The notes under the pieces were generated by a model. The model was not told the origin of the DNA, searched no databases, and was given only the letters and a program-made list of their open reading frames with translations. From Gammaproteobacteria bacterium (GTDB taxonomy: Bacteria > Pseudomonadota > Gammaproteobacteria > Pseudomonadales > Azotimanducaceae), in the NCBI GenBank assembly GCA_026713185.1, contig JAPOOX010000165.1, positions 1 through 64,000 on the forward strand: DNA of 64,000 bases, in the 5' to 3' direction. Shown here in pieces: positions 36,379 through 52,171 of this stretch. Made by a program: the position numbers and the translations under genes. Within the stretch, counting starts at the first letter, position 1. Each line of letters begins with the position of its first letter.

Positions 36379-37413
36379 TTACAAATTATAGAATTGCTCG
36401 CAATGACGTCGAAAGAGTCTGATTTCCCCGTCTGAGCTGCATAGACGGGGATGAGGCAGATGTTGTTTTCGGTTCCAGATTACAACATCCTGTAAAACGT
36501 CCCGCATCTGGGATGCAATAATGAATTTGTTTATGATCCTGGTGCGCAGTTTAAGCGGCAGGAAGCGCATGCCGATGATCCACCGCTTCGGCTTCAGTAC
36601 TTGCCGCACCTGGCTGACCAGCACCAGTTCAACACATTTGCCGTCAATGGGTGTTGTGAGTACCCACAGGCGCGTATCCATGTCGATAGAGTGCTCGTGA
36701 ATTTCGACGAATGAACAGCCTAACCCGTACACATGAATGACAGTGGAAACATCGTATGTGTAGACCTTTTTCCCGGCGATGGTCTGGTTTCGCGTGAAGT
36801 CAACGCAACTCTTCAGGTAGGCGCCATCTACCGACACTGACCCAATCTGGTTCACATTGCTATAGCCATGCACATAGCGCAGATGTCCAAGGTCAACAGA
36901 GTTCTCGGACGTTTCCTGGGGATGTCCCTGGAACTGGATGCTCCGGAATTCCAATCCGCTCCAGTCAGTTCCGTCCGCTGGTAATTCCGGAAGGCCCCAT
37001 TGTGGTGGCCGTCCCCCCAGTCCCCACCAGGCAAAGACTATTCCAACAATTTCGCGTGTCTCAAATACCTTGAGTCTGGCGGACCCGGGCGGGGGTGCGT
37101 AGGGCGTTGCAACACATTGACCGGTGACATCGTACTCGAACCCGTGAAAAGGACAAACGAGGCAACCGTTGCGCACCCTGCCTCCGGCTTCTGGTCCCAG
37201 TTCGGATCCCAAATGCGGACAAATAGCCTCAGCCACACAGATGTGGTCCTCTTCGTCGCACCAGACGACAATTTGTTTGCCCATCCAGGTTCTTTGAACC
37301 AGTTTCTTCTTTTCTATCTCCTTTCTTGAGGCGATGAAATACCACCCTTCCGGGAATGGAGAAAGCGTGGTCAGATCATTGTGCTCGATTCGGCTGTCTT
37401 TCATTGGCATCAA
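36379..37413 (-). CDS. Rieske non-heme iron oxygenase (sterol/steroid type)
   Basis: 344 residues. The Rieske 2Fe-2S ligands are CPH (Cys65, His67) and CPFH (Cys87, His90). The mononuclear iron site is Asp174, His177 and His182 in ENSVDLGHLRYVHGY, so a full oxygenase alpha subunit. This arrangement recalls the cholesterol 7-desaturase (Neverland/DAF-36) and KshA-like branches, and the Rieske enzymes of bacterial sterol C-4 demethylation, more than aromatic-ring dioxygenases. No ferredoxin reductase is adjacent. Last gene of an eight-gene minus-strand operon, 12 bases after the sterol-reductase-like gene. Confidence 0.85.
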   Translation of the reverse strand: MMPMKDSRIEHNDLTTLSPFPEGWYFIASRKEIEKKKLVQRTWMGKQIVVWCDEEDHICVAEAICPHLGSELGPEAGGRVRNGCLVCPFHGFEYDVTGQCVATPYAPPPGSARLKVFETREIVGIVFAWWGLGGRPPQWGLPELPADGTDWSGLEFRSIQFQGHPQETSENSVDLGHLRYVHGYSNVNQIGSVSVDGAYLKSCVDFTRNQTIAGKKVYTYDVSTVIHVYGLGCSFVEIHEHSIDMDTRLWVLTTPIDGKCVELVLVSQVRQVLKPKRWIIGMRFLPLKLRTRIINKFIIASQMRDVLQDVVIWNRKQHLPHPRLCSSDGEIRLFRRHCEQFYNL

Positions 37414-37425
37414 CTATCATACCCA

Positions 37426-38511
37426 TCAATAAACTCGTGGCACAATGCGCCACGGTACTTGTTTGCGATACTGGTCCCATAACGGACCATACTTTTCGGC
37501 GCAGCGGCGGTCATCGTCGCGCTCTCGTGGCAACAGAAAGACAATGTAATACAACGGATAGAGCCAGGGAACAAGGGTGAATGGCCAACCCAGGGCAAGT
37601 GTAAGTCCACAGCTCATGAGGATTTCGCCGAGATAATTGACATGGCGCGAGACACCCCAGAAACCACTGCACAACACATGTCGTTCGCCGTCAGAAATCG
37701 TCCTGGGTTCGAACACACCAAGGAATTTTTGTTGCGGGTTCTGTTTGAAGTAGTACTTCTGCATATTTGAACCACGCGCCAGCAGCCAACCACTGAAGAA
37801 AATGACTGTCGCCAACAGGTACAGCCATGCCGGGGCATCCGGGTTGGGAAGGTCCGATACGCCCCACAAACCGACGCAGTAGAAATACGGATACCAGGCG
37901 AGGCACCCCCAGATCAGCTTGAATCCGAGGCGCTCTGCGAATAAATCATAGGTGTACAGGTGAATACGTTCGAAGATCATGTAGTCGCAGATGAACCAGG
38001 TAAACAGCAACACGTAGAGAAAGACACCGAATGATGGATCATCAGGATAGCGCAGGTAATGATGAGCACCGAATGACAGCAGGTTCAATAACAAAAGCGC
38101 TGCTCCGGCCACGTAAAGGTACATCTTGGCGTCGGTGCGACCATTGAAAATTTGCGGATTTCTCATACGGCCTAGATAGTAGTCTGCCAGCCATGTCTTC
38201 CCCTGACCGGGTGAAATGAACATCAAGACGGCGGAAACAAGTGCCCCAAGCACGCACCCACCAAGGGCGCCGGGCCAGCGATGTTGCCATAACCAATCCC
38301 ACGGCATGATACCGCTGTGTCCGAGCACGAACCAGATGACTACACTCAGGGCAAGCACCGGCAGTCCGTTCAGGCGATAGGTCAGCAATTCACTGCTGTC
38401 ATCCTTGTGAACATAGCCTTTCACCCTGCGTGCCGGGACCACCAGATGCAAAACAAGAATCCCGGCGAAAGTCAGCCATCCGGAGAAAAAACCGATCAGT
38501 AGCTCAGTCAT
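37426..38511 (-). CDS. ERG4/ERG24-type sterol-reductase-like membrane protein
   Basis: 361 residues from ATG 38511 (38514 also possible) with about nine membrane segments. The C-terminal third carries the family signature: LCSGFWGVSRHVNYLGE near residue 285, and LLPRERDDDRRCAEKYGPLW then QVPWRIVPRVY at the end. This matches delta(14)-, delta(7)- and C-24-sterol reductases, which reduce sterol double bonds with NADPH. Bacterial members are few. The specific double bond cannot be told. Overlaps the upstream SDR by eight bases. Confidence 0.85.
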   Translation of the reverse strand: MTELLIGFFSGWLTFAGILVLHLVVPARRVKGYVHKDDSSELLTYRLNGLPVLALSVVIWFVLGHSGIMPWDWLWQHRWPGALGGCVLGALVSAVLMFISPGQGKTWLADYYLGRMRNPQIFNGRTDAKMYLYVAGAALLLLNLLSFGAHHYLRYPDDPSFGVFLYVLLFTWFICDYMIFERIHLYTYDLFAERLGFKLIWGCLAWYPYFYCVGLWGVSDLPNPDAPAWLYLLATVIFFSGWLLARGSNMQKYYFKQNPQQKFLGVFEPRTISDGERHVLCSGFWGVSRHVNYLGEILMSCGLTLALGWPFTLVPWLYPLYYIVFLLPRERDDDRRCAEKYGPLWDQYRKQVPWRIVPRVY

Positions 38512-39298
38512 CATTCCTCCAGGTGGTTCGCGCTACCAGTCGAATGGCTGCTTTGCGCGAAAGCAAACGGCCATTGATAAATGCACCGATACGATTGATA
38601 AATCCAGGAACCACTCGCGGACCTTTACCCAGAACACTCAGCGTCTTGCGTGCTACTACATCGGACTCCAGCATTCCTGGCACGGCCTTGCCGAAAGACC
38701 GGAAATACGCCGGAGTTCGAGTGGCGCCGGCACAACATGCCAATACATCGATGCCCTGTTGCCGCAACTCGTACCACAGACCTTCGGCAAACATGGTATT
38801 AAAAGCCTTGGTGGCTGAATAGACTGACAGTCCTGGCAAGCCTTGCATGCCTCCCATAGACGACATGAGGACAACCGCACCGCGCTGGCGTTCGCGCATG
38901 GGTCCGAGCAGGGCATGCAGCAGGATCAGTGGACCACGCACATTGACATCAATCACCTGCTGGTGAAGGTCGAGGTCTGAGTCCATGAAAGCGCCAATGG
39001 GGATAAAGGCGGCATTGTAGATCAACATGCCAACTTCCAGTTCCCGTGTTGCTTCGCGAATGATATCGTCCAACTCAGTATCCGCCAGGTCCAGCACCAA
39101 TGTGTGAATTTTCACCGGGTACTCTGAAGCCAGTCGTCCTGCAGTCTCCTGTAGAAGTTCTTCCCGCCGCGCCAACAGCAAAAGATTCATGCCGCGTGCG
39201 GCAAGCTGTTTGGCAAATGCTGCCCCCAATCCTTCCGAACCACCGGCAACAACCGCCCAGGGCCCGTATTTCTCGGGGAAATTAACCGGATTCCGCAT
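38504..39298 (-). CDS. Short-chain dehydrogenase (17-beta-HSD-like)
   Basis: 264 residues from ATG 39298; a start at 39313 would add five. The cofactor loop is GGSEGLG, the NNAG-like motif reads YNAAF, and the catalytic serine and YSATK are present. The C-terminus is basic with hydrophobic segments, which resembles membrane-associated 3-keto or 17-beta-hydroxysteroid dehydrogenases and 3-ketoacyl-CoA reductases. Overlaps the SRPBCC gene by about 17 bases, so tightly coupled. Confidence 0.85.
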   Translation of the reverse strand: MRNPVNFPEKYGPWAVVAGGSEGLGAAFAKQLAARGMNLLLLARREELLQETAGRLASEYPVKIHTLVLDLADTELDDIIREATRELEVGMLIYNAAFIPIGAFMDSDLDLHQQVIDVNVRGPLILLHALLGPMRERQRGAVVLMSSMGGMQGLPGLSVYSATKAFNTMFAEGLWYELRQQGIDVLACCAGATRTPAYFRSFGKAVPGMLESDVVARKTLSVLGKGPRVVPGFINRIGAFINGRLLSRKAAIRLVARTTWRNDD

Positions 39299-39737
39299 TT
39301 CCAGTTTCCACAAAGGACTTTAATCCAACACCAACATCGGTGAAACCGCGACGCATGTAGCCACCGAAACACAACCACACCAACGGCGCCAGCAAGCCAC
39401 TCAGACGATCCACATTATGGTATGTACAGCACGTCTCACCAACGGGTTCCAGAATCTGCTCACGCATGGCAAACAATAACCAACGTGTAACGAAAACCTT
39501 GCTCCAGCCAAGCAGACGCGGTTTGTCGAATTTGAAAACTGTTTCAGTGATGTTGAATTTACCCGGTCCCATTCTGACCAGCAGATGGGCAGGCGAGCCA
39601 ATTTGAAAGTCAGTGCTGGCCCGGGATGTGAATGTATTCCACTCCCCATACCGGTCCACATCCGTCAGCACATTCCAAACCGTCTCAGCCGACGCCTGAA
39701 TTGTAATTCTATCCGTGCATATATTGAATATGCTCAT
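39282..39737 (-). CDS. SRPBCC (START-like) lipid-binding domain protein
   Basis: 151 residues from ATG 39737, which overlaps the preceding SDR stop (ATGA). A longer in-frame start at 39791 has no support. The SRPBCC start is clear: ITIQASAETVWNVLTDVDRYGEWN, with later GWSKVF and EPVGETCCTYHN strands. These folds have a deep hydrophobic pocket that binds lipids, sterols or polyketides. In this operon it could carry or present the substrate; that is inference. Confidence 0.8.
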   Translation of the reverse strand: MSIFNICTDRITIQASAETVWNVLTDVDRYGEWNTFTSRASTDFQIGSPAHLLVRMGPGKFNITETVFKFDKPRLLGWSKVFVTRWLLFAMREQILEPVGETCCTYHNVDRLSGLLAPLVWLCFGGYMRRGFTDVGVGLKSFVETGNAESG

Positions 39738-40735
39738 GCCCGTTTCCCCGTTACACACAATGATCCAACCCACGCGTGGGTCTCTTCCCATAATCGCCGG
39801 GACACTGTTTCGTCCATCGATTCGTTGGACACTTCCGCAATATCACAGCGGTAGTAATAACACCCGCCCTGTAATGAGGATGTACTGGCGCAATGCACAA
39901 CGGTCTGTGCGCCGGCCGGCCTGCTCAGCAACACCAGGGAAGACATTGCGGAACTGAACCGCCACACCACTTTCCCAAAATTGCTACGCGGTTCTGCCCA
40001 TTGGGTCAGATTGGTATTGACCGACCCCGGATGCAGCGCCACCGACCGTATTTTCGACGTTCCGGAGAATCGTCTCTGCAGTTCAAACGAATGGTGTATC
40101 AGCGCAAGCTTTGACATGCCGTAAGCTTCCCAGGAATTGTAACGCGGGGCAGGCTCGAATAAATATTTGTTTTTTCCACGGTCATGCAAGTGAGAAGCGA
40201 CGTTGACCACCCGTGCATCACCACTCTCCAGGCCGCCTTGTTGCAACAGCGGAAGCAATGCATGAGTCAAATGAAATGTGCCCAGATAATTGGTACGCCA
40301 GTGAATCTCAAAGCCGTCACGGGTCAATGGAGGCTGGGTGGAAGGCGTGAAGATGTTCTTGTGAATGCCGGCATTGTTCACCAGTACCTGTAAACTGTTG
40401 CCATGAGTCTCCCGGTACCACGTCACAAAACCGTCGACACTGTGTGGATCGCATAGATCAAGTGCATGAACGGAAATGTTGTTCGGGTCGGCGCCGGTAC
40501 GGCGCAGGTCCGTTTGCAGCGATTCTTTCATAAAGGCTACTTTGTGCGGACTGGTGGCAACAACTCGAGCACCCCAGGAGGCAAGAATGCGGGCGGTTTC
40601 ATAGCCCAGAGAACCGGGCGAGGCACCCGTCACGATCACGGTGCGGCCGGAAAGATCAACTTTCTTCGCTTTTGGTTTCGGTAAAAGAAGGCGGCTCAAA
40701 TGGATAACGACCTTGGTGAATGTGTTTTGCATCAT
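39734..40735 (-). CDS. Short-chain dehydrogenase (retinol-dehydrogenase/WWOX-like)
   Basis: 333 residues from ATG 40735, one base after the previous stop. The nucleotide loop is TGASPGSLG, one residue longer than TGxxxGxG. VNNAG, the serine in VNVASHLH and the YGMSK catalytic pair are present. The N-terminus is hydrophobic and basic and may associate with the membrane. It resembles retinol dehydrogenases and WW-domain oxidoreductases, which act on large lipids. Confidence 0.85.
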   Translation of the reverse strand: MMQNTFTKVVIHLSRLLLPKPKAKKVDLSGRTVIVTGASPGSLGYETARILASWGARVVATSPHKVAFMKESLQTDLRRTGADPNNISVHALDLCDPHSVDGFVTWYRETHGNSLQVLVNNAGIHKNIFTPSTQPPLTRDGFEIHWRTNYLGTFHLTHALLPLLQQGGLESGDARVVNVASHLHDRGKNKYLFEPAPRYNSWEAYGMSKLALIHHSFELQRRFSGTSKIRSVALHPGSVNTNLTQWAEPRSNFGKVVWRFSSAMSSLVLLSRPAGAQTVVHCASTSSLQGGCYYYRCDIAEVSNESMDETVSRRLWEETHAWVGSLCVTGKRA

Positions 40736-40736
40736 T

Positions 40737-41738
40737 TCACTCTCTGGATGACACAACGAGCGGCTCACTGGCTTCCCACAGTCTGGCGCCGTTATCCGGG
40801 TCTGCAGCAGCAGCCGAGACGGACTTGATATGCATCATGTGTAAATACAAACCGGTTGTACTGCCGCTTTCTTCCGCACAGCACAGATAGATTACCGGAT
40901 TGATTGCATCTTCCGGGGACTGGAACATGCGCCGTAACAACGGGTTGATGATTGGCCGCAACCACGCGGGTGCATCTCTGGCGATATTTGTTGCCACACC
41001 ACCTGGGCACATGGCGTGAACTGCGACCGACACATCGTTGCCGGGATTCAATCGCCTTGATAGTTCAGTGGCAAAAGTACACAGCACCAACTTGCTGATA
41101 CCGTAGTATTTCAGGCTGGTTTTGATGCCGTAGTCGGTAAATGCACCGAAATTTTCGAAATCAATAGCGTTGGACGAGCGATGCGACTCCGAGGAAATAA
41201 ATACGATACGCGGTATGTTGCCTGATTTACCGGCGGGACGAATCACACCATCCTGTAACCAGCGATCAATCATCACTCGCGATGACAGAAAGTGCACTGC
41301 AAACATCATTTCAAAGCCTTGCGGCGTCTTGCGCGCACGTCTCGGCATCAGACCGGCATTCATGAGCGCGATATCCAGGCAAACTTCTCTATCGCGTAAA
41401 TCGTCGCACAAGCGATGCACAGAACGCAGGTCAGCCAGGTCAACTTCCAGAATTTCCACCTTGTCAGAACCGGAAATCTGTTTGATTTCATGACAGGCGC
41501 CAGAATGCCCCGGTCGGCATGCCATTATCACCTGTCCGCCACGGCGGGCCAGTTCGACTGCTGCCGCTTTGCCAAGGCCGCTGTTTGCACCGGTAACCAG
41601 GCAGGTTTTGCCATCGATGCGCAAGTCATCAACAACCGGGGTCAATTCAACCCCGCCGGTTGACCGGAGATCACGTACAGCGGCAGTAAAAGCATTGACG
41701 AAGGTGCCGTCTCCGGTCTGTTTCTGTCCACGTTTCAT
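40737..41738 (-). CDS. Short-chain dehydrogenase (retinol-dehydrogenase/protochlorophyllide-reductase-like)
   Basis: 333 residues. Cofactor motif TGANSGLG at about residues 49-56, LMNAG, the serine in VFISSESH and YYGISK as the catalytic tyrosine-lysine. About 40 residues precede the Rossmann core. It is similar in type to the next gene but clearly diverged from it, so not a recent duplicate. The gap to the sulfotransferase gene is 50 bases. Confidence 0.85.
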   Translation of the reverse strand: MKRGQKQTGDGTFVNAFTAAVRDLRSTGGVELTPVVDDLRIDGKTCLVTGANSGLGKAAAVELARRGGQVIMACRPGHSGACHEIKQISGSDKVEILEVDLADLRSVHRLCDDLRDREVCLDIALMNAGLMPRRARKTPQGFEMMFAVHFLSSRVMIDRWLQDGVIRPAGKSGNIPRIVFISSESHRSSNAIDFENFGAFTDYGIKTSLKYYGISKLVLCTFATELSRRLNPGNDVSVAVHAMCPGGVATNIARDAPAWLRPIINPLLRRMFQSPEDAINPVIYLCCAEESGSTTGLYLHMMHIKSVSAAAADPDNGARLWEASEPLVVSSRE

Positions 41739-41788
41739 GCTTACTCTGTCTCCTTGTGCCTGAGATTCGTGATCGTTCCGCTGCCTGG

Positions 41789-43036
41789 CTACTCGTATGG
41801 GATGCCGAATTGCTGCCGGTAATCCGAGAAGTTATCTTCAATCCATTGTTCGCTTAAACCAAAATCATCGAGTTGGTAGGCATGCCGACCAAAGCGATGT
41901 TGCTGATTCTGCTGCAGAAACAGACCAGCTTCGCGTTCTGCTTCATCTGTAAACTCAATTTCTGCCCGTTGGTATATGCGACGCAGTTGGGAGACAGGAT
42001 TCTCCATCAGGTCGTAGTAGGAAACATCCACAAATTTTACTTCTTCAAGGTTAGCCCGGCATTGCAGGGACGAGTCAACCATCCGGCGGTTTTTCCTGCC
42101 CCAATGCCGGCCAATTTCCACCGGATCAACATGGTCACTGAATATGGCGCGGCTGTGTGCAACCAGGCTGCAAAAAGAAGGTAATGTCTTAAGCGGGTCA
42201 CGATGAGTTTGCACAATAGTGGCATCAGGAAAGATTCTGGAAAATACATCCAGATATTCCAGATGATGAGGAGTCTTCAGTACACGATTGGGTGTCGGCC
42301 ATTGCCAGCATAGAATCTTCAGCATAGTACGGAGATACTCATAGGTACGGGTATGGTCCTGCTGTTCCAGCCATTGTGAATAAGACGGTACATGTAGAAT
42401 GGCCTCCGGCAACTGGCTCATGAAATTCAAATCCAGCAACATGACGTCTTCTTCCGGCGCCTCATGCGCAATCGGATGCGCGGCCATGAAATCCGGTGAC
42501 AGCCAGGCAATGAGGCGTTCGGCTGCCATTGCGCGCATTCGGAAGTTTGTCTTCCTGGTGTTGTGCATGGCATTTATCGGCACGGGCTCCAGTGATTCTG
42601 CTCCGGAAATACCGCGGACCTGCGGGTGAGAATGCAACAATCGATGTAATAAAGTTGTGCCGGTGCGTTGCAATCCCGTAATCATAATGATCCGTCCAGG
42701 GTCAACAGAGTGTATCTCTGGATGTCGCTTGAGCAACGCTGCCACCCGCAACCGTTGAATCAGGGCACTTAACAGCTTTGACTTCTGGATCATCCTTCCC
42801 ACCAGGGTCAATTCAGCTTCTTTATTGATGGCATCGATCAGCGTATCAAGGGCCGGGCGAAAGCTGTCATCACCGAGATCATCCAGTCCGGTCTTCTGTT
42901 TCGCCTGTGCGATAAGCGCATCCGTCTGCAAGCTGCTCGACGCCCTGTTCCGGCCAAGCAGGTTCAACAGCCTGACCGGTAACGGCCGGTATGGCTGCAT
43001 ATAGTTCGTGGAAGACACAAATTCCATCTTGCTCAT
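41789..43036 (-). CDS. PAPS-dependent sulfotransferase
   Basis: 415 residues of the Sulfotransfer_3-type family. The 5'-phosphosulfate loop is TGLQRTGTTLLHRLLHSH near residues 118-135 and the 3'-phosphate region is VQTHRDPLKTLPSF with its arginine. A histidine in the FDAA-like segment could be the base. The family moves sulfate from PAPS to alcohols of lipids, sugars or steroids. In the cytoplasm it would release PAP, which CysQ (21134-21970) degrades. 13 bases separate it from the DUF1214 gene upstream. Confidence 0.85.
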   Translation of the reverse strand: MSKMEFVSSTNYMQPYRPLPVRLLNLLGRNRASSSLQTDALIAQAKQKTGLDDLGDDSFRPALDTLIDAINKEAELTLVGRMIQKSKLLSALIQRLRVAALLKRHPEIHSVDPGRIIMITGLQRTGTTLLHRLLHSHPQVRGISGAESLEPVPINAMHNTRKTNFRMRAMAAERLIAWLSPDFMAAHPIAHEAPEEDVMLLDLNFMSQLPEAILHVPSYSQWLEQQDHTRTYEYLRTMLKILCWQWPTPNRVLKTPHHLEYLDVFSRIFPDATIVQTHRDPLKTLPSFCSLVAHSRAIFSDHVDPVEIGRHWGRKNRRMVDSSLQCRANLEEVKFVDVSYYDLMENPVSQLRRIYQRAEIEFTDEAEREAGLFLQQNQQHRFGRHAYQLDDFGLSEQWIEDNFSDYRQQFGIPYE

Positions 43037-43049
43037 GAGCTTTTTATAC

Positions 43050-44240
43050 TCAGTCCAAATTTTGCAGTTCGTCCCATTTCACCAGCCGGGTTGTCGGTTG
43101 CGGGTGTTCAACTGCCTTTACCCAACGAAAACACATGGTGCCACTACAGTGACCCGCCGTTTCTATCCAGTTAGGCAGGTGCGGGTCCCGATGCGCAACT
43201 ATCAGACGCACTGGTCCACCTGCCTGATATTGTGCCAGATGCTTGTTGGTATGTATGCGATGATAGCGATAATCCAGGGATTCCATCCAATAATTGCTTA
43301 ACTGAAAGTTCCAGTATTCACACTGTGGAGGCGTTACTTCAATCAGCAATACTTCATCTTCCGCAATCGCCCAATGGCTGTGATAGTAAGCAATATTGGG
43401 GTCTCCCCCGGCGGCCAATGACACATCAGGGTCAAACTGCGGCAACTGGTTACTGTGTTGCTGAAAGTCACGTGCCCATTTGGCAAACAGCAGCGGCGCT
43501 CCGGCTACCAGTGTCCCCACGGTTTGCAGTCCCCGGTCCAGTTGCATTGGTGTCAACAGGGAAGGACGCCGCTCATCTTCAGTGCAGTTGATGCGTTCAA
43601 TATGCAGTTCCGCCGGTGTCTCCGCATTGCGGTCCAGGAAGGTCTGGCGCACTACCAGAGTACCCGACTCAGGGGTCATCGGCAGCCAGTTTCCACTTTG
43701 CGGCTTGCTGCTTAATATCATCTCGAAATAACCGTCTTCACCGATATCCATCTGCCTGGCCTCAATATGCCCGGTGGGAGGCAATCCACCGCCCTGGCCG
43801 TAGTTGCCGGATTGCGTACCAAAACTCAGATAGGCAATGGTATTGCGGTGGCCTGTGATGCGATATTCGTAGTTGCCGTTCAAAGCGGCGGTCTGATAGA
43901 AATTATCGGGATTGTCGGCGCCCAGCTTGGTGGTTTCATTGACCACCCGATGCAACACCGGCGCATTCGGGTCGGCATGCTCGATGAAAGCCATTAATCC
44001 GGCACGGGTTATCCGGCTAAGGTACCGGTACCCTTCAGCCTGATTGAAAGCATCACGCGGAGTTGCCGGAAACTGTAAAGCAGCTCCCGCGGCTTTCAAG
44101 GTGTCACAGAATTCGTTCCAGGACTGACCGCTGACAACCCGCTGAGCAGATACATCGTCTTCAGTCTTGCCGCGTAATTTCCAGATGAACAGGGAAACGC
44201 GCCGGAACAGGGCAAGCATACTGATGACGAGTTTTCGCAC
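43050..44240 (-). CDS. DUF1214-domain protein
   Basis: 396 residues. The C-terminal half has the DUF1214 features: HWAIAEDEVLLIEVTPPQC, then YWNFQLSNYWMESLDY and HLPNWIETAGHCSGTMCFRW. The N-terminus has a short hydrophobic stretch (about residues 5-19) that may be a membrane anchor. The family has no agreed function; members occur beside lipid and xenobiotic metabolism genes. It is the first gene of the eight-gene operon, so its promoter should lie in the 310-base gap upstream. Confidence 0.8.
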   Translation of the reverse strand: MRKLVISMLALFRRVSLFIWKLRGKTEDDVSAQRVVSGQSWNEFCDTLKAAGAALQFPATPRDAFNQAEGYRYLSRITRAGLMAFIEHADPNAPVLHRVVNETTKLGADNPDNFYQTAALNGNYEYRITGHRNTIAYLSFGTQSGNYGQGGGLPPTGHIEARQMDIGEDGYFEMILSSKPQSGNWLPMTPESGTLVVRQTFLDRNAETPAELHIERINCTEDERRPSLLTPMQLDRGLQTVGTLVAGAPLLFAKWARDFQQHSNQLPQFDPDVSLAAGGDPNIAYYHSHWAIAEDEVLLIEVTPPQCEYWNFQLSNYWMESLDYRYHRIHTNKHLAQYQAGGPVRLIVAHRDPHLPNWIETAGHCSGTMCFRWVKAVEHPQPTTRLVKWDELQNLD

Positions 44241-44550: not shown

Positions 44551-45369
44551 ATGATGAACGCTCATATCGCTCGCACTACTCTACCGCTTCTCGCAGTCTG
44601 CGCCTGTATTCTGGCGTATCCGTCTGCACCACTATACGCAGAGGAGGCAACGCCAGAAGAAAAGGGGTTACAGATCGCACGCGAGACCCGTGAGAAAGGG
44701 AGAGGTTTTGAAAATTTCACGGCCGAACAGAGCATGGTGCTGCGCAACAAGCAGGGAAAGGAGAGCCTGCGCCAGCTCCGTGTAAAGGTTCTCGAGACGG
44801 ACGGAGGCGGTAACAAAAGCCTGTTCGTCTTCGATCGCCCTCGCGACGTCCAGGGCACCGCGCTACTCGTCCACACACACAAGGAGAGCGACGACGATCA
44901 ATGGCTCTATTTACCCGCACTGAAGAGAGTCAAGCGCATCAGTTCATCGAACCAGTCCGGCTCATTCATGGGCAGCGAATTTGCTTATGAAGACCTGGGC
45001 ACCCCGGAGGTAGAGAAATATACCTACCGTTACCTGCGTGATGAGCCTTGCCTTGAGATGACATGCACGGTCGTCGAACGCTTCCCGCTGGACAAAAGAT
45101 CGGGCTATCAACGCCTGCTCGTATGGCAGGACAAGGACGAACTTCGCATCTGGAAGGTCGAGTACTACGACAAGAAGAATTCACACCTGAAGACGCTCAC
45201 GATTAGTGATTACAATCTGTATCTGGATCGCTTCTGGCAGGCCGGTGAAATGTCAATGGTCAACCACCTGACGGGTAAGAGCACCGTGGTGACATGGAAG
45301 GATTTCAGGTTCCGCACCGAACTCAAAGAAAGCGACTTCACCCAGACCGGACTGAAACGGATGCGCTGA
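44551..45369 (+). CDS. LolA-like outer-membrane lipoprotein-sorting protein
   Basis: 272 residues with a signal peptide ending about LYAEEA. The body matches the LolA_like family found beside RND transporters: GRGFENFTAEQSMVLRN, SLFVFDRPRDVQGTALLV, DDQWLYLPALKRVKRISSS and the FMGSEFAYEDL turn. Such proteins have an open beta-barrel pocket for acyl or other hydrophobic groups in the periplasm. The stop shares a base with the start of the beta-barrel gene (TGATG). Confidence 0.82.
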   Translation: MMNAHIARTTLPLLAVCACILAYPSAPLYAEEATPEEKGLQIARETREKGRGFENFTAEQSMVLRNKQGKESLRQLRVKVLETDGGGNKSLFVFDRPRDVQGTALLVHTHKESDDDQWLYLPALKRVKRISSSNQSGSFMGSEFAYEDLGTPEVEKYTYRYLRDEPCLEMTCTVVERFPLDKRSGYQRLLVWQDKDELRIWKVEYYDKKNSHLKTLTISDYNLYLDRFWQAGEMSMVNHLTGKSTVVTWKDFRFRTELKESDFTQTGLKRMR

Positions 45370-46607
45370 TGCCACAGGCCGCCGTCTTGATATTGGCCAC
45401 GGCCCTTCTCTCCGGAGTGAGCTACGGGGCCGAAAACTACGAACTCGACATTTTTGGAAGCCTGGACGTCGAGAACCTGTGGTATCCCCAAAATGGCGCC
45501 TATGCCGAACAGCGCGCATACGCAACCGGCTTTGTTGCGAAACCGAAACTCTTTCTCACAGACTACGATGGAAGCTGGAGTATCCAAATCGCACCGTTTT
45601 TTCGGTTAGACACTGCAGACTCGCAGCGCACCCACGCCGATTTACGCGAAGCCTACTTCCTTGTTTTTGGTGAAATCGGTGATGGGGAATGGGAAATGCG
45701 CCTGGGTGTCGACCGCGTGTTCTGGGGAGTCACCGAATCGCAACACCTCGTCGACATCATCAACCAGACCGACCTCGTCGAAAATCCAAACAGAGAAAGC
45801 AAACTGGGCCAACCCATGGCACACCTCACCTGGTCCACGGAACGGGGTATCATGGAATTTTTTGCCCTGACGTATCACCGTGCGCGCACCTTTCCGGGCG
45901 TCCATGGCCGCCTGCGTTCCTCTATCCTCATAGACGATGAACACATTGAATACGAAAGCGCCGCCGGGGAGTGGCACGTGGACCTCGCCGCACGCTACAG
46001 TAACAGTTTCGGACCGTTCGACGTCGGCTTAAGCGTATTCGACGGCACCAACCGGGATCCTGTTTTCATGCCGAATCTGGATGCTGATGGCACATTGTCA
46101 CTGGTTCAACACTACGAACAGATTCGCCAGTACAGTATGGACGGTCAACTTACCATAGAGTCCTGGCTGTTCAAGCTGGAAGCTCTTCGCCGTGAAGGCG
46201 CCAGTAATCTTATGGGCGCGAAAGAGGACTACACCGCTTTCGTCCTGGGCGGCGAATACACCTTCAACTCAGTTTTGGGTTCGGCGGCCGACTTCGGCCT
46301 GCTTGCTGAATGGAATTACGACCTGCGACAGGAGCGGGAACATTCATCCACTGAGTTCCAGAACGACATGTTCCTCGCCGTTCGCCTTGCGTTGAACGAT
46401 ACACAAAGCACAAATCTCATTGCCGGCATTCTGGCAGATATGGACTATTCTACGCGAACCCTGAGCATGGTTTTAAAAAGGCGCATCTCTGATCAGTGGT
46501 CCCTGAATCTGGAAACGATTGTCTTCATGGACGTCGACGAAAAGGACATCATTTATACGACCCGGCGAGACAGCTTCATTGCGCTGAATTTGACATACAA
46601 TTTCTAG
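45369..46607 (+). CDS. Outer-membrane beta-barrel protein (DUF1302-like)
   Basis: 412 residues from ATG 45369, which overlaps the preceding TGA; a start at 45294 would bury the signal peptide. The signal peptide ends near SYGAEN. The mature part has regular amphipathic strands and the last residue is phenylalanine (LTYNF), as in outer-membrane proteins. GVDRVFWGVTESQHLVDIINQTD is a segment typical of DUF1302/alginate-export-like barrels that occur with LolA-like and MMPL proteins. It probably forms the outer-membrane part of the set. Confidence 0.75.
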   Translation: MPQAAVLILATALLSGVSYGAENYELDIFGSLDVENLWYPQNGAYAEQRAYATGFVAKPKLFLTDYDGSWSIQIAPFFRLDTADSQRTHADLREAYFLVFGEIGDGEWEMRLGVDRVFWGVTESQHLVDIINQTDLVENPNRESKLGQPMAHLTWSTERGIMEFFALTYHRARTFPGVHGRLRSSILIDDEHIEYESAAGEWHVDLAARYSNSFGPFDVGLSVFDGTNRDPVFMPNLDADGTLSLVQHYEQIRQYSMDGQLTIESWLFKLEALRREGASNLMGAKEDYTAFVLGGEYTFNSVLGSAADFGLLAEWNYDLRQEREHSSTEFQNDMFLAVRLALNDTQSTNLIAGILADMDYSTRTLSMVLKRRISDQWSLNLETIVFMDVDEKDIIYTTRRDSFIALNLTYNF

Positions 46608-46664
46608 AACAGATTGTTCCTTATTCCTTCCCCGTTGAGAAATCTTGACCAGGAGTAACCACCA

Positions 46665-47486
46665 ATGAAATTTCCAGGTCTGTGCACAACACTCTTCCTC
46701 GTGCTTTTTTGGACGTTCGGAGCCGGTGCCGCCCAAAGTCCAGAATTGATACCTTTCTGGAATACCAGCGATGAATCAAATACCAGATCAATTGATCACA
46801 GTTCCTGGCAGGAATTGCTGAATGTTTATCTGGACGCCGAACATGCTTCCGGTATTCACCGATTCAACTATGCCGCTTTAAAGGATAGTGAAGGTGATCA
46901 ACAATCCTTGAGAAAATACCTGGTATCTTTGACTTCCCTCGACCCTCGTCAATATGCGAGGCAGGAACAGTTGGCGTACTGGATCAATCTCTACAATGCA
47001 CTGACGGTCCATGTCGTCACCGGACGATATCCGGTTGAGTCAATCAGGGAAATCAAGAGTGGTCTGTTCAACTTTGGCCCCTGGGACAAAGAACTTATCA
47101 TCGTCCAGGACCAGAATCTCACTCTGAATAACATAGAGCACGGCATTCTAAGGCCCATCTGGCGGGATCCAAGGATTCATTATGCGATTAATTGTGCGAG
47201 CATCGGGTGCCCGAATCTCTCACCCGAGGTGTATCGGTCGGATAACCTGGAACGGCTGCTGGAAGAAGGTTCCAGCGATTATGTGAATCACCCCAGAGGT
47301 GTATCAATTGAAGGGGACAGACTAACAGTTTCGAGCATCTTCGACTGGTGGAAAGACGACTTTGGTAGCACGGACGAAGCTGTACTTGAACATCTCAAAA
47401 AGTATGCAGAACCCGATCTTGCTGAACAGCTCCAAAAGTTCACAAAATTTGATGACGACTACGACTGGAACTTGAATGAGCCATAG
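46665..47486 (+). CDS. DUF547-domain secreted protein
   Basis: 273 residues with a signal peptide (about residues 1-22). The DUF547 core is clear: YWINLYNALTVHVVTGRYP, NNIEHGILRPIWRDPRIHYAINCASIGCPNLSPE, and FDWWKDDFG. Function unknown; the conserved histidines and cysteines suggest a transglutaminase/cysteine-protease-like fold or metal binding. It follows the beta-barrel gene by 57 bases and is probably part of the same transcript. Confidence 0.85.
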   Translation: MKFPGLCTTLFLVLFWTFGAGAAQSPELIPFWNTSDESNTRSIDHSSWQELLNVYLDAEHASGIHRFNYAALKDSEGDQQSLRKYLVSLTSLDPRQYARQEQLAYWINLYNALTVHVVTGRYPVESIREIKSGLFNFGPWDKELIIVQDQNLTLNNIEHGILRPIWRDPRIHYAINCASIGCPNLSPEVYRSDNLERLLEEGSSDYVNHPRGVSIEGDRLTVSSIFDWWKDDFGSTDEAVLEHLKKYAEPDLAEQLQKFTKFDDDYDWNLNEP

Positions 47487-47566
47487 TTCTCCACAGGGAT
47501 AAGCAAGCCGGGCTCGTTGTTACCACTGCAGATATTACAAGTGAGCACGCCACCTACAGCACAGAC

Positions 47567-47658
47567 ACTTGAATCCATTTTTCCGCTGGGCTAAAGTTGG
47601 CTCCACAAGGCTACCTGCCGTGGCAGCCTGAGCGTCATGGCCTTCCACTGCAACAGCC
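47567..47658 (+). repeat. 92-base intergenic repeat, left copy of an inverted pair
   Basis: Matches the reverse complement of 52219-52309 with roughly 75-80 percent identity by eye. Shared cores: ACTTGAATCCAT, GCTGGGCTA, CCTGCCGTGGC and TGGCCTTCCAC. It contains the palindrome CTGCC-GT-GGCAG. It lies in the 253-base gap before the MMPL gene; the rest of that gap shows nothing else. Confidence 0.8.
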
Positions 47659-47739
47659 GCATTGCGATGATCGGTATCCAACAACCGCTATTGGAACCGG
47701 CGGGTTAAAATCGGTTGCAAGCCACTGGACAGCGAAGCC

Positions 47740-50028
47740 ATGATATCTTTCTCTCTGGACCAATACATTGCTTTTACATTGCGATACCGATGGCTGGTGC
47801 TCGCGTTGTCCGTGGCTGTCATGTTGGTTCTGGCAGCCGGCCTTCGCTTCATTTCCATCTCCAACGACTGGCGCGACATGTTAGACGAGGACAATCCTCA
47901 ACTCGTTGCATTCGACGCCCTGGAGGATACCTATACAGCGACCGATGCGGCGGTGATCGCAATCGCGCCCAGGGAGGGATCAGTATTCACCCGCGAGTCG
48001 CTCATAGCCATCGAGGAGTTGACCGAGGCCTCATGGCAGTTGCCCTTGTCCAGCCGGGTCGACTCCCTTACCAACTATAATCCAAGCGAGGCGTTCGAGG
48101 ACGACCTGATAGTCGAGCCGCTCGTGAACGACCCGGGGTCCCTCAGCGATGACGATCTCGCGCGGATCAGAATGATTGCGTTAAATGAGAGCAGTATCGC
48201 GGGCCGTCTCGTCTCCCACGACGGGCGCGTTGCCGGGCTGGTCATCAGTTTCGCCATGCCTGAGCATTTGGACGACGTGGAAATAGAGATTTTTAACAAT
48301 ATCCACAACCTCCTGGACCAGGCTCGGTTGAATCATCCGGATATCGACTATCACCTGACCGGCAATATCTTTGTGAACCGGATAATGTCGGATGCGGCCC
48401 AGGACGATATGGGGATTCTCGTGCCCTTTGCATTCCTCGTCATCGTGACCGTCGCCGCTATCCTTCTGCGCTCCCTGTTGGGCACACTGTCCCTTGTTGT
48501 CGTGATCATTTTCGTCATCGTATCGACCATGGGCGTCATCGGCTGGACCGGTTTGGTGCTCAACGCCGCCAACTCCGGCATTCCCATCATCATCATGACA
48601 CTCGCAATCGCGCACTCGGTCCACATCTTCGCGACCATCACGTCCGGTATGGGCCGTGGTCTGGACAGGGACACGGCCATCGTCGAATCGCTGCGCGACA
48701 ATGCCTGGCCGATGTTCCTTACGACAGCCACGACGATGATCGGGTTCCTCAGCATGAACGCCTCGGACTCTCCGCCTTTTCGGATTCTCGGCAACCTGGT
48801 GGCGTTCGGTATGCTGACCACCTTTGTGTATTCCATGACGATTCTGCCGGCGCTGTTGTCGGTCCTGCCGTTGCGCGCGCGCCCTGTACCCGCCGGGCAA
48901 TCCCCTTTCTTCGATCGCCTCGGCGCTTTCGTCATTGCGCGCCGCACACTCCTGCTATGGTCCATGCTTATCGTTGTCGTCGCCCTGGTATCCGGTGTGC
49001 CCCGTGTCGAACTGACTGACAACTGGACACAGCATTTGGATGAGCGTTATGAGTTCCGGCGCGACACGGACTTTGTCATTGAGAACCTGACCGGCGTAGA
49101 AACCCTGGAATACAGCCTGAGCGCAGGTCGCGAAGCCGGCATCACCGATCCCGAATATCTGCGCAAGATCGACGCTTTCGCCGAATGGTACCGTGCACAA
49201 CCGGAAGTGGCGCATGTTCAGACGTTTTCAGCCATCATGAAACGTCTCAACAAGAACATGCACGGCGACGACCCGGCCTTTTACCGACTACCCGAAGACT
49301 CCGAGCTTGCCGCGCAGTACCTGCTGCTCTACGAGCTTTCGGTTCCCTTCGGCATGGACCTCAACAACCGCATGGACATCGGCAAATCCTCGACGCGGAT
49401 GACCGTCACGCTCCACAGACTGAAGTCCGAGGAGCTGCGCAGGCTTGAAGTACGCGGGCAGGAGTGGCTCCGCGCCAACGCACCCGACCTCGCGACCGAG
49501 GCATCGGGGTACAGTCTCATCTTCGCCCATCTGGCGATACAGAACGCCAAGAGCATGTTGGGGGGTACGGTCACCGGCATGGTCCTCATTTCGCTGATTC
49601 TGATCGGGGTTTTCAAAAGCCTGCGCCTCGGTCTTGTCAGCCTCGTACCCAACCTCATCCCCGCGGCCATGGCTTTTGGCGTCTGGGGCTATCTATACAG
49701 CGAGGTGGGTCCCGCCGGTTCTCTGGTAACCGCAATTGCTTTCGGCACCGTTGTCGACGACACGATTCACTTCATGAGCAAATATCTCAAGGCGCGTCGC
49801 GAGGGCTTTTCCCCGTCCGAGGCGGTGCGTTCCGCTTTTAATTCGGTGGGTCGTGCGCTGTTCACCACAACCATGATCCTGGTGCTGGGCTTCCTGGTGT
49901 TCGCCACATCGGGTTTTGCGATCAGTTGGATGCTTGGCCTCCTGGTAGCGCTCACGGTCGGTTTCGCGCTGGTCTGCGATTTCCTGCTCCTCCCGCCCTT
50001 GCTGATGGCCATAGACCGTAAGACATGA
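47740..50028 (+). CDS. RND/MMPL-family transporter
   Basis: 762 residues in two similar halves, each with one membrane segment, a large periplasmic loop and five more segments, so about 12 in all. The second halves carry the RND sequences TMGVIGWTGLVLNAANSGIP and AIAFGTVVDDTIHFMSKY. The type is that of HpnN and other lipid-moving MMPL proteins; such proteins share a fold with sterol-sensing domains. With the LolA-like and beta-barrel proteins upstream it could move a hydrophobic compound between the membranes. GC-rich with long antisense shadow frames. Confidence 0.85.
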   Translation: MISFSLDQYIAFTLRYRWLVLALSVAVMLVLAAGLRFISISNDWRDMLDEDNPQLVAFDALEDTYTATDAAVIAIAPREGSVFTRESLIAIEELTEASWQLPLSSRVDSLTNYNPSEAFEDDLIVEPLVNDPGSLSDDDLARIRMIALNESSIAGRLVSHDGRVAGLVISFAMPEHLDDVEIEIFNNIHNLLDQARLNHPDIDYHLTGNIFVNRIMSDAAQDDMGILVPFAFLVIVTVAAILLRSLLGTLSLVVVIIFVIVSTMGVIGWTGLVLNAANSGIPIIIMTLAIAHSVHIFATITSGMGRGLDRDTAIVESLRDNAWPMFLTTATTMIGFLSMNASDSPPFRILGNLVAFGMLTTFVYSMTILPALLSVLPLRARPVPAGQSPFFDRLGAFVIARRTLLLWSMLIVVVALVSGVPRVELTDNWTQHLDERYEFRRDTDFVIENLTGVETLEYSLSAGREAGITDPEYLRKIDAFAEWYRAQPEVAHVQTFSAIMKRLNKNMHGDDPAFYRLPEDSELAAQYLLLYELSVPFGMDLNNRMDIGKSSTRMTVTLHRLKSEELRRLEVRGQEWLRANAPDLATEASGYSLIFAHLAIQNAKSMLGGTVTGMVLISLILIGVFKSLRLGLVSLVPNLIPAAMAFGVWGYLYSEVGPAGSLVTAIAFGTVVDDTIHFMSKYLKARREGFSPSEAVRSAFNSVGRALFTTTMILVLGFLVFATSGFAISWMLGLLVALTVGFALVCDFLLLPPLLMAIDRKT

Positions 50029-50089: not shown

Positions 50090-52171
50090 TTATCCCAGGC
50101 AGGTCCGGTTATGAATTTTCCCCGGTCCATGGGGCGCCATTTCAGCCTTTGCAGATAAATCTATGCAGGCGTTGCCTGTTGCTCCAACTCCAATTGGTCG
50201 CTTGGACTTGATGCGGAACTTGAGCGACTTGCGAGGGCCGGTGGTCGGGAATGCATTGATTTTGAGCGGCTTGTCTGCTGATAGCACTTCAAGCTCGAAA
50301 TAGTACGCGACCATCAGAATGGTTATCGCTAATTCATATTCCACCACTCTCGACCCGAGGCAGGTATGTGTACCCAACCCATAGGCAGCAAATGCGCCGT
50401 GTTTCATATTCTCCTCGCGACCGGGAAGATACCTGTCGATATCGAACTTGAGCGGGTCCGGATAATTTTCTTCCAGGTAATGGACAGCAGTGGACCCGAC
50501 CACAATACGCTGCCCAACGGGTAACTCATAACCCTCTACGATGCAGCCATTCATGACATCTCTCAACTGCATGGGTATGATGGGATAGAGTCGAAGGGTC
50601 TCAAGAATCAGCCGATGCGTGGTATCCATCGCCTCCTTTGTAAGGTCCTCCGGTTGCAGGTCGCCATCACCAAACAGCGCCTCTGCTTCCCTGCGCACGC
50701 GCTGATAGATGCCAGGATGAGTGAACAAATTATAGAGTGAGAAAGTGAGGGCATTCCCCATATAGAGGGCTGCAACAAGCGATGTTAACAGCGCGAATTT
50801 GACATCGGTTTCAGGAAAATATTGAGGATCACTGGCGTGCAGGCTGAGTAGGTCGTCGGCCAGGTCGCGGGGTTTGTTTTCGCGCAGTGCTGGTGTGTGT
50901 AACCTCTGTATCATGGAATAGACATCTTCTATACGCCGTCGGATAGCGGACATTCGCGGCGTTCGAAGCATGAACCTCGGCAGGGAACCTTGCACATGGG
51001 TAATCAACGCCCGGTTCTTGTACATGAGGATGTCATCCATCTGTTCCGAGATGTTCATGCTCAATGCATATTGAGATTGTTGACCTGAAAAGATTTTTAG
51101 GCATGACTCCCGGGCCTTGATCACCTCGCCTTCGTTCCATGTATTCAGGACCAACCGAATCTCCCGGAGCATTTCTCCGAGGCGTTCGTTTATGCGGTTT
51201 GGGCTGAAGGGGGTCTTCAGCGCCTTGCGCATGCGGTAATGTTCGGCGCCATCCATGCCAGGCAGGCTTCTCGATGCGCCAAACACGGCCTCCAGATCCC
51301 TCATGAATTCCCTCGATCGCAGATGCAGCCGGCCGTGCCGGTGGACCCAGATGTTGGCTGCGTTTCCGGAGAGGAAGATAACTTTCGATCTGGTAAAAGG
51401 CTTCTTGATTGCGAAGACAGGACCATAATCGCGGTAAAGATCGGCCAGCAGTTTTGATGTATTTCCTTCCCTGAGCGATTTTTTGCGCAGCAGTTTCAAA
51501 AGGTTGACATTGGGAATCGGTCTGGTCGCAATCGCAATGGTGCGACGGACCGATGTCACCGCCACTGCAGATGCTACGGATTGACCGATGAGGTCCAGCC
51601 TGCCCAACAGCTTGATACGGTCTTTTGATGACTCGTAATCATCCGGCAGCAAAAGGAACCTGAATGCGTCGCAGGCATCGGCAAGACCGATGAGTATGGC
51701 GTCGCGGGGGTCGGGTATGCCGTCTCCCAGAATCGTATCGATGATTCGCTGGCGTACGATTGCCTGGGTTTGACCGCTGGACACATCGAATCCAGCCCGT
51801 GTCGCGTTACGTGTGAGAGACCAGAATCCGCCGATCGCATGCTCCAGGATCCCGTTTTTCACCAACCGTTCAAAAACCTGATCCAGGATTTCGTCCGAAT
51901 TGTTTCCTATCTTCTCGACCCAGTATTGAATACTGCGTGCTTCGGGATCTTCAGCAATGTCTGCCAGTACCGGGTCGAGAATTTCGTCTCCCAGAGGCGT
52001 TGCATCATTCAGCGACAGCGACTCGAGATCGGTGTCGATTCTAAGCTCAAGGGCAAGGTCTGCGAGGACGGCGCCGGCAAGAACACAGGAGAGATTCCAA
52101 CCTGCAACCTGTTCAAGGTAGCCGCTCTCATCGTTCAGCAAGAGTAGTATGACTTCTTCAGTCAGTCTCAT
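50090..52171 (-). CDS. GPP34 (GOLPH3-like) domain fused to a cytochrome P450
   Basis: 693 residues. Residues 1-210 match the GPP34/GOLPH3 fold: LTEEVILLLLNDESGYL, LAGAVLADLAL, ATPLGDEILD, ERLVKNGILE and PDPRDAILIGLADACDAF. Residues 235-650 are a P450: the ExxR motif is ETLR (524-527), RYLPGRE follows, and the heme cysteine is Cys604 in YGLGTHTCLG. The I helix reads LYMGNALTF, without the usual acid-threonine pair. In eukaryotes GPP34 binds phosphoinositide membranes; here it may tether the enzyme to the inner membrane. Convergent with the MMPL gene. Confidence 0.85.
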   Translation of the reverse strand: MRLTEEVILLLLNDESGYLEQVAGWNLSCVLAGAVLADLALELRIDTDLESLSLNDATPLGDEILDPVLADIAEDPEARSIQYWVEKIGNNSDEILDQVFERLVKNGILEHAIGGFWSLTRNATRAGFDVSSGQTQAIVRQRIIDTILGDGIPDPRDAILIGLADACDAFRFLLLPDDYESSKDRIKLLGRLDLIGQSVASAVAVTSVRRTIAIATRPIPNVNLLKLLRKKSLREGNTSKLLADLYRDYGPVFAIKKPFTRSKVIFLSGNAANIWVHRHGRLHLRSREFMRDLEAVFGASRSLPGMDGAEHYRMRKALKTPFSPNRINERLGEMLREIRLVLNTWNEGEVIKARESCLKIFSGQQSQYALSMNISEQMDDILMYKNRALITHVQGSLPRFMLRTPRMSAIRRRIEDVYSMIQRLHTPALRENKPRDLADDLLSLHASDPQYFPETDVKFALLTSLVAALYMGNALTFSLYNLFTHPGIYQRVRREAEALFGDGDLQPEDLTKEAMDTTHRLILETLRLYPIIPMQLRDVMNGCIVEGYELPVGQRIVVGSTAVHYLEENYPDPLKFDIDRYLPGREENMKHGAFAAYGLGTHTCLGSRVVEYELAITILMVAYYFELEVLSADKPLKINAFPTTGPRKSLKFRIKSKRPIGVGATGNACIDLSAKAEMAPHGPGKIHNRTCLG

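Follow-up and report, generated by a model that had tools for sequence, protein, structure and literature searches.

The 64,000-nucleotide stretch of DNA that we analysed (the window) encodes an ERG4/ERG24-family membrane reductase (37426..38514, minus strand; an intact reading frame of 362 amino acids) that belongs to a new variant branch within this known family, with altered catalytic residues and with an SDR as its partner. This branch, clade B, to which the protein was assigned by its Pfam family (PF01222), its similarity to the solved structure 4QUV, an AlphaFold model, and a tree, is a distinct bacterial branch that is paired with an SDR and is found in anaerobes and in bacteria that do not make sterols. 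Our favoured, though tentative, reading is that clade B is the ene-reductase half of a two-enzyme SDR module whose substrates are sterol-like lipids obtained from the surroundings.

The reductase matches PF01222 (ERG4_ERG24) across residues 13-361, with 152.2 bits against a cut-off of 27 (E = 2.6e-44); no NCBIfam model matched it. The second methionine of the reading frame lies at 38511, and a start there fits the length of most homologues. It is the sole member of PF01222 in its genome. Its closest solved relative is 4QUV (E = 1.1e-38, residues 7-361), which is MaSR1, the delta(14)-sterol reductase of Methylomicrobium alcaliphilum and an integral membrane protein. We built an AlphaFold model with 29 relatives (mean pLDDT 87.9, pTM 0.88), and 345 of its residues can be aligned with those of 4QUV (Z = 31.9, rmsd 3.7); the next structural matches are SRD5A steroid 5-alpha-reductases, with Z of about 10. 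A sequence-only reading of this gene had placed it in the ERG4/ERG24 family, and the Pfam match, the similarity to 4QUV, and the model all bear this out. The C-terminal signature motifs that were quoted are indeed present, at residues 283-297, 330-343, and 356-362. The same reading had named, as evidence against itself, similarity just to methyltransferase-type relatives that lack the NADPH pocket. The C-terminal core is common to both superfamilies, and the protein has a marginal overlap with DUF1295, but the model scores Z = 9.4 against the ICMT methyltransferases (5vg9/5v7p) versus 31.9 against 4QUV, and the NADPH residues are kept. We consider it highly improbable that this is an isoprenylcysteine-methyltransferase-like enzyme without reductase function.

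In a maximum-likelihood tree of the bacterial relatives together with 4QUV and chain 9l5r_c, clade A, which holds 4QUV, stands apart from both clade B and clade C with 100/100 support. The window reductase falls in clade B. A phylogeny had been suggested as a check on the sequence-only reading, and, with 4QUV and clade A as the reference, it does not group the window gene with the delta-14 reductases. Clade C (L071-L100) is the sister of clade B; it has no SDR partner, and its hosts include bacteria with and without a sterol cyclase.

We then mapped the residues of the reductase onto the numbering of MaSR1 and compared them across the three clades. The equivalents of ten NADPH-pocket residues (N316, K319, R356, H357, N359, Y360, R395, D399, K406, and Y407) are all present in the window protein, and each is conserved in 93-100% of clade B. 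In human LBR, NADPH binding depends on the residues that correspond to N359 and R395 (PMC4951196). The position of D363 is Glu in clade B and likewise in clade A. Structure prediction, which had also been suggested as a check, gave the 4QUV fold, and the mapping shows that the NADPH pocket is kept. The NADPH-reductase fold of the window protein is well supported, as is its partnership with an SDR.

Tyr241 of MaSR1 is the proposed catalytic residue or proton donor (PMC12489058), and the corresponding residue in the window protein is Phe174. This site is Tyr in all 18 sequences from clade A and Phe in all 47 from clade B. If Tyr241 really is the acid of ERG24, then clade B must supply its proton in another way. 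Three polar residues near the substrate pocket, His185, Tyr189, and Tyr208 (V252, W256, and L275 in MaSR1), are invariant in clade B and peculiar to it, and two more, Lys199 (M266) and Cys204 (D271), are near-invariant. Any of H185, Y189, and Y208 could stand in as the proton donor. The Tyr241 site is also Phe in 18 of 22 sequences from clade C. As clade C lacks the SDR partner, the loss of the tyrosine either predates the pairing or was not caused by it. Overall, the window protein resembles MaSR1 and the C-14 reductases ERG24 and LBR in its Pfam family, fold, NADPH residues, and C-terminal signature. In contrast, it is 26-29% identical to MaSR1 and differs from it at Tyr241 and at the three sites with invariant polar residues; and, as further differences, it belongs to a separate clade, its gene lies outside any sterol cluster, and it has an SDR for a partner.

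The partner SDR (38504..39313, minus strand; 269 amino acids) lies directly upstream, and its stop overlaps the start of the reductase by 8-11 bases. Its S152-Y165-K169 triad is kept, and it has an arginine (Arg49) after beta-2. An arginine after beta-strand 2 of an SDR is typical of NADP(H) use, and Arg49 suggests that the partner may be of this type. The nearest NCBIfam models are mycolate reductase and 7beta-HSDH, both far below their cut-offs, and the nearest solved chain is 5fyd, which we take to be a 7beta-HSDH.

A homologue of this SDR adjoins the reductase at 45 of the 49 clade-B loci, at none of the 18 clade-A loci, and at none of the 22 clade-C loci. The SDR is usually upstream of the reductase with an ATGA-type overlap. 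At two loci (L045 and L052) the two genes are convergent, which implies that the partnership outlived a rearrangement. Two of the four loci without an adjoining SDR are cut by the end of the contig (L046 and L059), and the other two are basal members of clade B that have no such SDR nearby (L065 and L073). Furthermore, the pairwise identities of the SDRs and the reductases are correlated (r = 0.80, 43 pairs), to which shared ancestry contributes. We found no other neighbour that is common across phyla at the sampled clade-B loci. Nor did we find conserved context beyond the SDR in Treponema, Bacteroidia, Spirochaetia, and Clostridia, where the neighbours that we sampled have unrelated housekeeping or signalling roles. 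Flanking genes, including one for a FapA protein, are common to three of the Treponema loci (L048, L051, and L061). Apparent frameshifts, which are possibly sequencing errors, split the clade-B reductase at one locus (L036:8001-9086) and the partner SDR at another (L040:7210-8004).

The distribution of clade B is patchy. Proteins that are 46-67% identical to the window's occur in MAGs labelled as Acidobacteria, Actinobacteria, Verrucomicrobia, Bacteroidales, Clostridia, Spirochaetia, and Treponema (these host labels come from MAGs, whose contigs can be misbinned, although three Treponema loci agree in their flanking genes, as noted above). Clade B was found in just 1 of 398 sampled Pseudomonadota. 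In a sample of 296 genomes from the phylum to which the Treponema locus belongs, using a threshold of E = 1e-40, clade B proper was found in one, which is the reference itself; the remaining matches were weaker and of another kind (E of 1e-40 or better, beyond 1e-60). The statement that only a few bacteria carry enzymes of this family is outdated: 41 of 200 genomes from the window's own family (Azotimanducaceae) have a PF01222 gene above the cut-off, and ERG24-CYP51-LSS clusters have been reported from 115 sponge MAGs (PMC9531527). Three genomes (G007, G124, and G160) have genes from both clade A and clade B.

Within the Azotimanducaceae, clade A has the context that is expected of a biosynthetic enzyme. 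Clade-A genes lie in sterol clusters, and 16 of 18 clade-A genomes have a sterol-type cyclase. At L101, for instance, the gene order is an NAD-epimerase/3beta-HSD-like protein (in the SdmB position), a Rieske protein (in the SdmA position), the clade-A reductase, a P450 (in the CYP51 position), a squalene epoxidase-cyclase fusion, and a squalene/phytoene synthase. (The fusion is a single ORF of 1117 amino acids, L101:3230-6583 on the minus strand, that joins squalene epoxidase to oxidosqualene cyclase; L102 and L103 have long ORFs that are homologous to it.) These clusters resemble the CSGs of sponge symbionts (PMC9531527), and PF01222 is common to clades A and B. However, clade A keeps the tyrosine and sits with SdmB-like and SdmA-like proteins, a P450, and the SE-OSC fusion, while clade B does neither.

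We searched the window's own genome, a 98.8% complete assembly, for the enzymes that make sterols. The profile for squalene/oxidosqualene cyclases (SQHop_cyclase_C) had no match. Squalene epoxidase gave one partial match of 24 bits, which is generic FAD-monooxygenase-like, and similarly weak matches arose in the E. coli and Caulobacter controls, so we rejected sterol synthesis for this genome. Lacking both an oxidosqualene cyclase and a true squalene epoxidase, this bacterium makes no sterols, and we did not find the supply of 8,14-diene that an ERG24 enzyme would use (as judged by the searches for squalene epoxidase and cyclase). The sequence-only reading had likened the C-terminal signature to that of eukaryotic delta-14, delta-7, and C-24 sterol reductases and had favoured a sterol role. 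The PF01222 match and the similarity to 4QUV speak for such a reductase in a de novo pathway. But the pathway is missing from a nearly complete genome, the genuine C-14 reductase of this bacterial family is clade A, within its P450/Rieske/SE-OSC cluster, clade B is set apart from it at 100/100, and the proposed catalytic tyrosine is replaced by Phe. We therefore consider a biosynthetic role very unlikely.

Other hosts of clade B are similar. The Treponema, Spirochaetia, and Clostridia hosts gave no match to the cyclase profile, and neither did nearly all of the Bacteroidales hosts; one Bacteroidia host had a partial match of 65 bits. Most of the anaerobe hosts, as well as 10 of the 18 clade-B genomes in the Azotimanducaceae, make no sterols. 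The groups in question (Treponema, Bacteroidales, Clostridia, and Spirochaetia) are mostly anaerobic, and sterol synthesis needs O2. Within the Azotimanducaceae, clade B is commoner in genomes that have a sterol-type cyclase (8/18 versus 9/183, with partial matches included); this association is phylogenetically clustered (p = 1e-5 ungrouped, p = 0.03 by genus).

How might the reductase and the SDR work together? We propose that the SDR would first convert a sterol-like alcohol, polycyclic or isoprenoid, into a ketone by oxidising its hydroxyl group, so that the carbonyl activates a C=C bond. The membrane reductase would then transfer a hydride from NADPH to the conjugated C=C bond, and finally the SDR would return the ketone to an alcohol, so that the product would be the saturated alcohol. 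The same relay is described for DHRSX with SRD5A3, which turn polyprenol into dolichol (PMC13229312). As the ERG24 proton donor is absent and the reductase is locked to an SDR, our data suggest a carbonyl-assisted reduction; indeed, Phe at the proton-donor site in every clade-B sequence fits this better than it fits an acid-first mechanism. The window's genome lacks the cyclase for sterol synthesis, so the substrate must come from outside, and the other hosts without a cyclase must take it up as well. Four observations speak for a sterol-like substrate: the protein family, the presence of 7beta-HSDH among the nearest named models for the SDR, a neighbouring Rieske protein that resembles ketosteroid hydroxylases, and the higher frequency of clade B among sterol-making genomes of the Azotimanducaceae.

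Alternatively, clade B could be a conventional sterol reductase that acts on scavenged host or dietary sterols, acid-first and on isolated or diene C=C bonds, with the SDR acting elsewhere on the sterol. The fold and the NADPH pocket are the same as in 4QUV, and another conserved Tyr or His could supply the proton. There is also a precedent, as an orphan sterol reductase from a bacterium that does not make sterols is active in yeast (PMC8787468). More broadly, Stmp1 (CBU1206) of Coxiella and the delta-7 reductases of Legionella and Protochlamydia are, like clade B, orphan ERG4/ERG24 enzymes in hosts without sterol synthesis (PMC8787468, PMC2667531). Stmp1 is thought to act directly on scavenged sterols (PMC8787468), and the delta-7 type of Legionella and Protochlamydia groups with plant DHCR7 (PMC2667531). 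We compared these enzymes by their descriptions, in which a partner SDR is not reported (PMC8787468, PMC2667531). However, a conventional mechanism does not fit easily with the replacement of the proton donor throughout clade B, and it leaves the near-obligate SDR partner unexplained. This makes a conventional reductase possible but rather unlikely.

Another alternative is that the SDR and the ene-reductase act together on a membrane lipid that is not a sterol, such as a polyprenol or another isoprenoid alcohol, or a long-chain acyl group as in the KR/ER pair of fatty-acid elongation. The majority of the host genomes make no sterols, and DHRSX with SRD5A3 (Tda5 with Dfg10) shows that such a module can act on polyprenol: there, an SDR catalyses both the step that precedes and the step that follows reduction by a membrane ene-reductase of related core (PMC13229312). 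The SRD5A proteins are also the structural matches that come next after 4QUV. But DHRSX and SRD5A3 are a eukaryotic pair that converts polyprenol to dolichol, and SRD5A3 belongs to the SRD5A family, while clade B belongs to the sterol reductase family PF01222. The very patchy distribution of clade B, as in the sampled Pseudomonadota, argues against a core envelope lipid, and the enrichment in sterol-making genomes of the Azotimanducaceae argues against a non-sterol substrate. On balance, we regard a non-sterol substrate as a doubtful but real possibility.

The proposed sterol-like module has a counterpart in anaerobes. The indirect conversion of cholesterol to coprostanol that involves IsmA is proposed to proceed by oxidation of the alcohol, reduction of the C=C bond, and reduction of the carbonyl (PMC12667688), which is the same sequence of steps that we propose for clade B and its SDR. 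In these stanol routes of anaerobes, which combine an IsmA-type 3beta-HSD with a 5-reductase, a PF01222 protein is not named in the cited literature (PMC12667688). Clade B with its SDR might be an O2-independent module for saturating sterols that has spread horizontally among Treponema, Bacteroidales, Clostridia, and symbionts, and that is among the missing sterol-to-stanol enzymes of guts, sewage, and sediments; this broader idea is speculative and rather unlikely.

Cholestanol is formed by Treponema (Brachyspira) hyodysenteriae; in the sample of 296 genomes from that phylum, clade B proper was confined to the reference. Although stanols are in wide use as markers in faecal and geochemical studies, the enzymes that make them are mostly unknown. 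If the pair does reduce sterols, it would be a concrete gene pair for anaerobic sterol-to-stanol conversion. Our results also bear on annotation: bacterial genes annotated as "delta-14 sterol reductase" are a mixture of true biosynthetic enzymes and a branch that lacks the catalytic tyrosine, so a PF01222-type gene alone must not be taken as a sign of sterol synthesis.

In the window, the reductase is the seventh of eight close-packed genes on the same strand, which run from 44240 down to 36379. The last of these encodes a Rieske oxygenase with a KshA_C domain (36379..37413, minus strand; PF19298, 85.7 bits; PF00355, 68.6 bits) and starts 12 bases downstream of the reductase. Its best solved relatives are 3-ketosteroid 9alpha-hydroxylases, it matches the NCBIfam model for SdmA weakly (33 bits versus a cut-off of 600), and it is the one KshA_C gene in the genome, which makes KshA-based steroid degradation no more than a possibility here. 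The sequence-only reading had argued for a sterol role from the Rieske and SDR neighbours. Pfam confirms that these neighbours are real, and the SDR directly upstream is informative; the Rieske gene, however, is a peculiarity of the window, as we found no relative of it beside the reductase at any other clade-B locus, and we rejected it as a general partner.

Upstream of the partner SDR are a small START/Polyketide_cyc2-like lipid-binding protein of 169 amino acids (39282..39791, minus strand; PF10604, 36 bits), with relatives at L034, L038, and L062, and two retinol-dehydrogenase-like SDRs (both PF00106): SDR2 (39734..40768, minus strand), which matches NCBIfam PRK06197 with 143 bits, below its cut-off, and has a relative at L066; and SDR1 (40737..41738, minus strand). 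These are preceded by a Sulfotransfer_3 sulfotransferase (41789..43036, minus strand; PF13469, 156 bits) and, as the first gene of the run, a DUF1214 protein (43050..44240, minus strand; PF06742, 26 bits). The block of DUF1214, sulfotransferase, and SDR1 (40737-44240) recurs beside clade B at four loci (L034, L038, L062, and L066), which are from three Acidobacteria MAGs and one relative in the window's own family, and the DUF1214 proteins at these loci match the window's with 660-690 bits. This block might lead to a sulfated lipid. The START-like, Rieske, and sulfotransferase proteins might handle the product of the reductase further.

Divergent from this run, at 44551-50028 on the plus strand, are genes for a LolA-like protein, an otherwise unassigned protein that by eye is barrel-like, and, also as judged by eye, a DUF547-like protein and an MMPL/RND-like transporter. 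Together these could be a system for the export or import of lipids. Beyond them, at 50090-52171 on the minus strand, is an ORF of 693 amino acids that, again by eye, resembles a cytochrome P450 extended at its N-terminus by a GPP34-like region.
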